From: a virus
Virus record (IMG/VR): IMGVR_UViG_3300002225_000008
Coordinates: 1 to 37,012 of that record
DNA length: 37,012 nt
Reading direction: 5' to 3' (one strand)
Below, in pieces: positions 5,937 to 8,007 of this stretch (positions are counted from its first letter, which is position 1; every line of letters begins with the position of its first letter). The notes below the pieces were generated by a model. The model saw only the letters and a program-made list of their open reading frames with translations. It did no database searches and had not been told where the DNA came from. Made by a program: the position numbers and the translations under genes.

Positions 5937-5952
5937 GCGTGTAATTAAGCTA

Positions 5953-5991: not shown

Positions 5992-6019
5992 AAGTTATCG
6001 AAACGAAACGGAGAGAGTG

Positions 6020-6208
6020 ATGAAAACTGTATTTAATGTAGGTGATAAGGTTAACTACCATTGTTTTGCTGGTGGAAAAGTTACAAGTAGTGGGCACCTT
6101 GTTGAGAATATTAGCTTGCAGACTAACAATTTTGGTGATGATGTTGCTTGGATTTCTGGTAAGTCTGGCTGTATATCAATGGAGCATTTGACGGAGGATA
6201 AAGGATAG
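6020..6208 (+). CDS. 62-residue protein of unknown function
   Basis: MKTVFNVGDKVNYHCFAGGKVTSSGHL... from the ATG at 6020, with GGAGAGAG upstream. The VGDKV...GKV pattern is that of a small SH3-like or KOW-like beta barrel; no family is confirmed. It is a single-gene unit between a terminator plus promoter copy B and the gene-free RNA region. Confidence 0.65.
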   Translation: MKTVFNVGDKVNYHCFAGGKVTSSGHLVENISLQTNNFGDDVAWISGKSGCISMEHLTEDKG

Positions 6209-6237
6209 TTGTTTTGTAAGTTGTAGAGCGGTATAAT
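6209..6237 (+). promoter_or_regulatory. Candidate promoter for the gene-free region
   Basis: TTGTTT (6209-6214), 17-nt spacer, TATAAT (6232-6237), right after the preceding stop codon. No protein-coding frame follows for more than 450 nt, so it would drive a noncoding transcript starting near 6244. Confidence 0.5.
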
Positions 6238-6243
6238 TGAGTT

Positions 6244-6380
6244 GTAGTAAAGCGGTGTGAAGAGCCGTGAAAGTTCAGTTGATTAGGGTATTTAAGTAAC
6301 GTGTGATCTTTGGTGGGTTAAACTATCAACTGTCACCCCCTCTTCAACAAGGGTTACATGTTTCTTAAGTATCCTTTTTT
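6244..6380 (+). ncRNA. Possible structured noncoding RNA with terminator
   Basis: Two long pairings cross each other. CAGTTGAT (6276-6283) can pair with ATCAACTG (6325-6332), 8 bp, perfect. GGGTATTTAAG (6286-6296) can pair with CTTAAGTATCC (6364-6374), 11 bp including two G-U pairs, and is followed by six T (6375-6380). They could form an H-type pseudoknot or be mutually exclusive terminator and antiterminator forms. A consensus -10 lies just upstream and no open frame is present. The RNA start is inferred from the promoter. Family unknown. Confidence 0.45.
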
Positions 6381-6452
6381 GTGCCTAGCAGTAATGCATA
6401 TAAGCGTAATCTGACCCGCAAACCTTTTAAATCGATAAGAGTCAGTAGGCAC
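6381..6452 (+). other. Large stem-loop, GTGCCTA...TAGGCAC
   Basis: GTGCCTA (6381-6387) and TAGGCAC (6446-6452) form a perfect 7-bp closing stem. Inside, CTGAC (6411-6415) pairs with GTCAG (6441-6445), stacking on the closing stem's 3' strand. It begins immediately after the T-run of the preceding element. Probably part of a structured RNA locus; no known class recognised. Confidence 0.4.
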
Positions 6453-6480
6453 AACTCCTTTCAATGCTCCACAGAGATAT

Positions 6481-6557
6481 GCTTGGCATGACATGGTGTT
6501 ACTAATGAGGTTGATCTCTCAAAGGTGAATTAGGTTCGAATCCTAAGCCCAGCGCCA
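6481..6557 (+). tRNA. tRNA-like sequence with intact T arm, acceptor 3' strand and CCA
   Basis: A perfect T arm, TTAGG-TTCGAAT-CCTAA (6530-6546), is followed by GCCCAGC, a discriminator G and an encoded CCA (6555-6557). GCTTGGC at 6481-6487 can form the acceptor stem with one mismatch at the fourth pair, giving a canonical total of 77 nt. The middle does not fold properly. The D stem is not convincing, and the anticodon stem TGAGG/TCTCA would leave a six-base loop. So this is either a degenerate tRNA, an unusual phage tRNA, or a captured tRNA 3' end such as an old attachment site. No integrase is present. Confidence 0.35.
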
Positions 6558-6632
6558 AATCCTTAGCTCAATCAGCTATCCGCACAAACGAACAATTTAA
6601 CTGACTGCTGTAGTACGACTTTTCAATCTATG

Positions 6633-6669
6633 ATTTAAGACTATAATTTAAGACTATTCGTGATATAAT
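6633..6669 (+). promoter_or_regulatory. Tandem 13-bp repeat followed by an extended -10 promoter
   Basis: ATTTAAGACTATA (6633-6645) is directly repeated as ATTTAAGACTATT (6646-6658), followed by TGA-TATAAT with -10 at 6664-6669. The stretch TGATATAATGATTG recurs identically at the promoter near 14245. It would drive the HNH gene at 6700. No good -35 is seen, so the TG extension or a protein bound to the repeats may compensate. Confidence 0.55.
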
Positions 6670-6699
6670 GATTGTTAGTTTAGTTGCGCGGAGGTTTTG

Positions 6700-7206
6700 A
6701 TGATAACAAAGCAAGAGATAGAGAAATTTCTTAGTTATAACCCTGATACAGGATTATTTACAAGGGTTGTTGGTGGTAGCGGTGTTGGCAATGTTGCAGG
6801 GGCTGTGGCTGGGACAGATATACACGCAAGAGGTAAAACTTATAAGCGTATAACAATTTCAGGTAAGAAGTACTTTGCTCATAGACTTGCCGTAATATGC
6901 TTGGAGATGGACTTGCCTGAGTCGTGCGTTGTTGACCATATCAATGGTGACGGCACGTGTAATATATCGAGTAACTTAAGGGTTGTAAGCGCGTCTGATA
7001 ATGCAAAAAATATAAAGCTGCAAGACAGAAGCGTTACTGGTGTTATAGGTGTTATTCCCAGAGGAAGAGCGTTCGAGGCGTCAATAGGGTTTAAGGGTAA
7101 ATGCTTTTATTTGGGGAGATTTAAGGATTTAGAGTCCGCCAAGCTTGCTAGGTCGATAGCTGAAAAGGTTGTCGGCTATATGGATGAGCACGGCGATTAC
7201 AGATAA
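6700..7206 (+). CDS. HNH homing-type endonuclease with AP2-like C-terminus
   Basis: 168 residues from the ATG at 6700 (GGAGG upstream). The N-terminal region has the repeated ISGKKYFAHRLAVICLEM segment, then the HNH_3 core CVVDHINGDGTCNISSNLRVVSASDNAKN near 85-113 with His, Asn and the DHINGD motif. The C-terminal SVTGVIGVIPRGRAFEASIGFKGKCFYLGRF...AKLARSIAEKV is an AP2-type DNA-binding domain. This is the architecture of free-standing phage homing endonucleases. It stands as its own transcription unit in the accessory region. A second HNH/AP2-like gene is at 32018-32629. Confidence 0.85.
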   Translation: MITKQEIEKFLSYNPDTGLFTRVVGGSGVGNVAGAVAGTDIHARGKTYKRITISGKKYFAHRLAVICLEMDLPESCVVDHINGDGTCNISSNLRVVSASDNAKNIKLQDRSVTGVIGVIPRGRAFEASIGFKGKCFYLGRFKDLESAKLARSIAEKVVGYMDEHGDYR

Positions 7207-7248
7207 AACAGTTTAAGATCCTTTTTTAAGATGGAGTTACTACCATCC

Positions 7249-7276
7249 TTGACTAAGGTCTTGTTGATACTATGGT
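7249..7276 (+). promoter_or_regulatory. Sigma70-like promoter
   Basis: TTGACT (7249-7254), 16-nt spacer, TATGGT (7271-7276), about 40 nt before the GTG start of the YopX-like gene. Confidence 0.5.
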
Positions 7277-7317
7277 TTAAATTAACTGAATAGATAAATA
7301 ACAAAGAGGGTTTGATT

Positions 7318-7921: not shown

Positions 7922-8007
7922 AATCAGTTACAACGGTACGAGGAGGTGATAAATCTCGCTCCAGCTGGCGTAATAGTTGGAACTCAATTCATTATTAGGA
8001 GTAGTAT

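Follow-up and report, generated by a model that had tools for sequence, protein, structure and literature searches.

The window, i.e. the whole stretch of DNA analysed here, comprises the 37,012 nucleotides of the IMG/VR virus record IMGVR_UViG_3300002225_000008, from a marine-type bacterial virus, and contains a gap in which sequence comparison identifies two conserved predicted RNA modules, A (6252–6380) and B (6381–6452), both absent from Rfam 15. The initial annotation had described this gap as free of protein genes, and 6209–6696 indeed holds no open reading frame of ≥60 aa and one of 46 aa on the minus strand. The promoter-like sequence reported there was also located, with TTGTTT at 6209–6214, a 17-nt spacer and TATAAT at 6232–6237. 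The −35 element is weak by itself (3/6) and a consensus promoter scan of the window did not call this pair of boxes; a −10 box matching at 5/6 or 6/6 positions is found upstream of the first hairpin (P1) in 14/14 module-A copies, mostly 6–7 nt off, with a summed score of 78/84 against a mean of 61.6 and a maximum of 71 in 1000 shuffles. The folding energy of the 491-nt gap is unremarkable (z = −1.57), and the case therefore had to be made from relatives; sequenced phages matched the gap directly at the DNA level only over short stretches of module B and the T arm. The features of the locus are as follows.

6209–6237, + strand: promoter, TTGTTT–17 nt–TATAAT, with the −10 box conserved in all module-A copies
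6252–6268, + strand: module A, hairpin P1 (GCGGT/GCCGT), kept in all copies
6276–6332, + strand: module A, pseudoknot 6276–6283/6325–6332, arm-swap test on 14 copies
6285–6380, + strand: module A, long hairpin followed by U6; P2 6285–6296/6364–6375, P3 6298–6311/6349–6362, P4 6312–6315/6334–6337
6381–6452, + strand: module B, outer stem 6381–6387/6446–6452 with covariation, 69.5 bits against model R2; pseudoknot 6402–6404/6424–6426 and P2 6411–6415/6441–6445 inside
6455–6467, + strand: conserved linker CTCCTTTCAATGC after slot 1, a block shared with relatives
6481–6557, + strand: tRNA-derived element, acceptor 6/7 bp, T arm 6530–6546, CCA
6558–6623, + strand: start of the 3' domain, aligning with L021 and L018 (0/300 shuffles as good)
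6697–7206, + strand: HNH endonuclease gene (PHROG 99, E = 3.9e-42; Pfam HNH_3)
7207–7303, + strand: end of the 3' domain, aligning with the ends in L018, L051 and L022 (0/300 shuffles as good, each)

Module A comprises a small hairpin and a long hairpin followed by T6, with an 8-bp pairing of the 5' linker with the apical loop. This perfect 8-bp pairing had been noticed from the sequence at the outset, as had a second long pairing that crosses it; the latter is present with its two G-U pairs but extends over 12 bp and not 11, and the T6 (6375–6380) lies directly 3' of it as described. A crossing pair as large as this one of 8 and 12 bp was obtained in 0/2000 dinucleotide shuffles of 6244–6380. 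A third pairing of 14 bp (P3) had been overlooked; with it the long hairpin reaches 26 bp. The stable P2/P3 hairpin with U6 immediately after it has the layout of an intrinsic terminator, of putative activity, which the consensus terminator scanner overlooks because the stem is long and the loop large. Across the module-A copies, the linker from the pseudoknot arm to P2 measures 0–2 nt and the partner arm lies beyond a P2+P3 rod of 24–27 bp, such that pseudoknot, P2, P3 and P4 would be hard to close together in one chain. Three ways round this geometry can be envisaged: P4 may open, P2, which bears the U-run, may open as in an attenuator, or the pairing may form between chains.

At least 13 further viral or prophage copies of module A were retrieved, from contigs of IMG/VR and from a single Colwellia MAG. 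A search pattern taken from the long-hairpin loop yielded ten viral contigs, with L060 already known via module B, and later searches added L099 on a Colwellia MAG contig, L101, a further, divergent copy that shares this contig, and L109. The whole RNA locus is thus present twice on this Colwellia phage contig (G001:C100), as diverged copies ~15 kb apart. In copies retrieved with the pattern, identity at TGATC-TTGGTGGG and CACCCC is imposed by the search and was not taken as evidence, which comes from changes in the helices and the pseudoknot. Covariance model R1, built for module A and run on terminase relatives of the window, matched L022 (E = 1e-15), L021 (1e-11) and L014 (5e-6), with L051 borderline (E = 0.012) and nevertheless keeping the pseudoknot and 3' domain; these four lack the search pattern and are therefore free of that ascertainment. 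L018 was not found by R1 and has a similar U-ended hairpin and a pseudoknot-capable pairing. Distant BLAST with one copy against 50,697 phage records gave no module A relatives. Chance matches were set aside (L061, L087, L090, L092, L093, L096, L104, and those of L063–L081 and L083 with P2 unpaired), as was L102, whose hairpin is made by an insertion sequence.

The nested helices of module A are paired in 95.6% of cells, against ≤57% with the partners slid. When arms of the crossing pairing were swapped among the 14 copies, own arms gave −8.7 kcal/mol against −6.0 for swapped ones (permutation p = 2e-5), and the same type of test with 11 copies gave p = 5e-5. Arm changes in both crossing pairings are thus compensated among relatives, the observation that the initial annotation had named as support for its pseudoknot RNA.

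The GTGCCTA/TAGGCAC stem-loop noted behind these pairings is present at 6381–6387/6446–6452, but is really the outer stem of a second conserved pseudoknot module. Module B is, on comparative grounds, a separate predicted H-type pseudoknot with the invariant loops CGUA, CCGCAAAC and AAAUCGAUAAGA, the stem-loop also being read as containing CCGCAARC. Its 3-bp pseudoknot joins bases 5' of CGUA to bases 3' of CCGCAARC and occurs as AAG/CUU, GUG/CAC, CGG/CCG, AGG/CCU, UAC/GUA and CUG/CAG, with 35/36 pairs kept over 12 copies despite many sequence changes and a covariation score of 0.694 against 0.116 when shuffled. The outer stem differs almost wholly among loci and is still paired (own arms −24.3, swapped −12.3 kcal/mol, p = 2e-5). 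The first relative came from Vibrio phage 1.199.A, in a gap lacking genes, followed by more viral contigs, and a second Colwellia MAG contig bears a more divergent copy. BLAST placed module B in 191 records of Vibrio phages; as many of these are isolates, it can be tested in the laboratory, and none of the matches listed carries an annotation. Exact pattern scans of 84,980 genomes for module B returned nothing, as did two narrow viral patterns. In Vibrio phage K172, the one of these records inspected, module B lies directly 3' of four tRNA genes and is followed by a terminator-like hairpin and by the endolysin gene. Module B is found as slot 1 (window, L099), as slot 2 (L060) and in a tRNA operon (K172), and is thus an autonomous domain shared by RNA loci of different kinds. 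In Vibrio phage 1.199.A (L053:3935–3980) a tRNA remnant directly precedes module B, and related phages have intact tRNAs there. Separately, hairpin units are arrayed in the motif region of L055 and L058 and in L059, L107 and L105; nearly identical long stems close the units, with terminator-like hairpins between some of them. Module B is found in one unit, and an L055 unit folds like a tRNA, has a long variable arm and is not called by ARAGORN. The ACCCGCAAG string of the Twister-sister ribozyme resembles the module B loop; module B differs in its H-type pseudoknot fold, and Rfam returned no match for it.

In relatives, module A is followed by a slot and the conserved linker CCUUUCAAAGC, often by another slot, and then by a 3' domain of ~240–290 nt. 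The slot after module A contains two tRNAs in L086 and three in L097, and is taken up by a tRNA-like element with T arms in L091 and by a plain hairpin in L094. The CTCCTTTCAATGC linker block recurs in L051, L060, L084, L085, L088, L094, L095, L097 and L101. The window element at 6481–6557 retains acceptor, T arm and CCA alone, with normal D and anticodon arms missing, and neither ARAGORN nor the Rfam tRNA model called a tRNA or tmRNA in the window, a tRNA or tmRNA identity being rejected on these results; in L021, a terminase relative of the window's phage, a tRNA-Arg stands exactly in its place with both flanks matching. With nhmmer, the 3' domain was detected in ten copies and, beyond these, in L018 and L051; it varies between sub-families (L060/L085, L089/L109, L084) and shows compensatory changes in 17/36 predicted pairs.

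Window positions 6589–6623 match the beginning of the L018 3' domain (0/300 shuffles as good) and, as 3'-domain pieces flank 6697–7206, the HNH gene sits inside the RNA locus. By alignment, the locus probably spans 6252 to ~7300 with a homing nuclease inside, and appears to be interrupted by this selfish gene. The initial annotation had missed this larger extent, the tRNA-like element and the apparent continuation past the HNH gene. Genes of HNH or GIY-YIG type, read from translations, also lie 3' of the RNA in L084, L085, L101 and L109. About 110 nt of the L018 3' domain have no recognisable counterpart in the window, whose copy may therefore be damaged there, and its 3' domain in two pieces may be dead.

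Comparison of the copies shows the structure, the conserved promoter, the modular build and the slots for tRNAs; transcription, oligomers and a cargo function we infer. On balance, we favour the interpretation that the locus would encode a large structured noncoding phage RNA, made from its own promoter and composed of module A, variable slots and the conserved 3' domain. Transcription during infection would yield an abundant RNA, by analogy with GOLLD and ROOL, starting with module A as a pseudoknotted 5' domain, behind which the slots of relatives contain functional tRNAs, tRNA-like hairpins or module B. In the window, they are filled by a degenerate tRNA-like element together with module B, and the homing HNH gene lies within the 3' domain. 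The RNA may fold, perhaps with its own copies, into a scaffold bearing or protecting tRNA-type cargo, again as in GOLLD and ROOL. Against such a large RNA, the U-run could stop the transcript at 6380 and leave a 130-nt RNA; the divided 3' domain of the window, the search-imposed identity within the module A core and the variation of 3' domains among sub-families also weigh against it.

A tentative alternative, to which we give a limited chance, is an attenuator leader, in line with the terminator/antiterminator switch proposed in the initial annotation. The long hairpin with U6 would act here as intrinsic terminator; the pseudoknot, by folding earlier, would hold back the lower stem and let polymerase enter the tRNA/RNA array, thereby switching between the 130-nt RNA and a long one. 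The U-run is kept in 13/14 copies and broken in L086, where tRNAs come immediately, and tRNAs straight behind the U-run in two relatives mean that read-through must occur there, as those of L097 require. The difficulty of satisfying pseudoknot, P2, P3 and P4 together across so short a linker also fits such a switch. However, P2 (about −15.6 kcal/mol) outweighs the pseudoknot (−8.3) in the window and the terminator form should win unaided, no ligand or regulator is known, and the U-run is partly pairable with As 5' of P2.

It is rather unlikely, in our estimate, that the RNA forms a third phage RNA cage beside GOLLD and ROOL, in which the module A linker–loop pairing would connect neighbours into a homo-oligomer and interior slots would display exchangeable cargo, be it a tRNA, a tRNA-like element or module B as an autonomous pseudoknot. 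Pairing in trans is suggested because the arms are too far apart to close easily within a molecule, and the linker–loop pairing of ROOL was found first by covariation and then seen joining two chains (PMC12286853). An improbable reading takes module A as a free-standing small RNA of ~130 nt, acting by base pairing or protein binding, with an ordinary decayed tRNA cluster behind it; its own promoter, the terminator-like end and tRNA remnants 3' of module A agree with this, but the conserved linker and 3' domain following module A in most copies would be left unexplained. That the gap is intergenic filler with chance pairings, as its ordinary folding energy might imply, is already refuted because three independent helix systems covary (each p ~2e-5).

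The favoured large RNA resembles GOLLD, a large phage or prophage RNA near or containing tRNAs, with a variable linker, a conserved 3' region and complex helices including pseudoknots (PMC12286853). A tRNA in the variable linker between structured regions is likewise present in L086, L097 and L021, the window having a tRNA-like element alone. ROOL is similar in being a phage RNA near tRNA islands (PMC12286853), but is not known to have a 5' domain made of one long hairpin ending in Us. No locus scanned matched Rfam GOLLD or ROOL at the gathering score, and a relaxed cut-off (E up to 10), applied to window 6000–6800, L094 and L097, gave no match either; the RNA is therefore assigned to neither family despite the likeness in layout. 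The ~800-nt noncoding RNA of ICP1, a large unannotated vibriophage RNA, is that phage's most abundant transcript (PMC7567579); it differs in being without tRNAs, and kinship was rejected with no match by R1 and none above background by R2. Candidates were also rejected among known riboswitches and T-boxes (no Rfam match), any other Rfam family (none, permissive searches included) and group I introns (no Rfam match; the 5' arms of the crossing helices are 1 nt apart, leaving no room for P4–P6). A literature search covering mainly non-subscription journals found no description of module A/B RNAs.

We know of few large ornate phage RNAs, and of none with known function. The comparisons point to an apparently undescribed, modular RNA class with interchangeable tRNA slots, which would add to this group from marine gammaproteobacterial phages; since tRNAs and a small pseudoknot interchange in the same slots, the cargo idea is directly testable.

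Two further elements were observed in the window. The repeat AACTGGTCGGAGCAGT occurs in seven copies with ≤1 mismatch (4324, 5952, 9034, 17533(−), 19832, 31302(−) and 33606(−)), 0.13 being expected by chance at ≤3 mismatches; the copy at 5952 lies shortly 5' of a start codon, as do copies in the related contigs L007 and L008, and the repeat is possibly a phage promoter or leader element. At 7936–7985, GGAGGTGATAAATCTCGCTC is followed by a hairpin (CCAGCT-GGCGTAAT-AGTTGG). The combination recurs at L020:6715–6753 with arms that are different yet pairing, and both L055 and L057 have a similar string in their RNA loci; this is possibly a further RNA motif.
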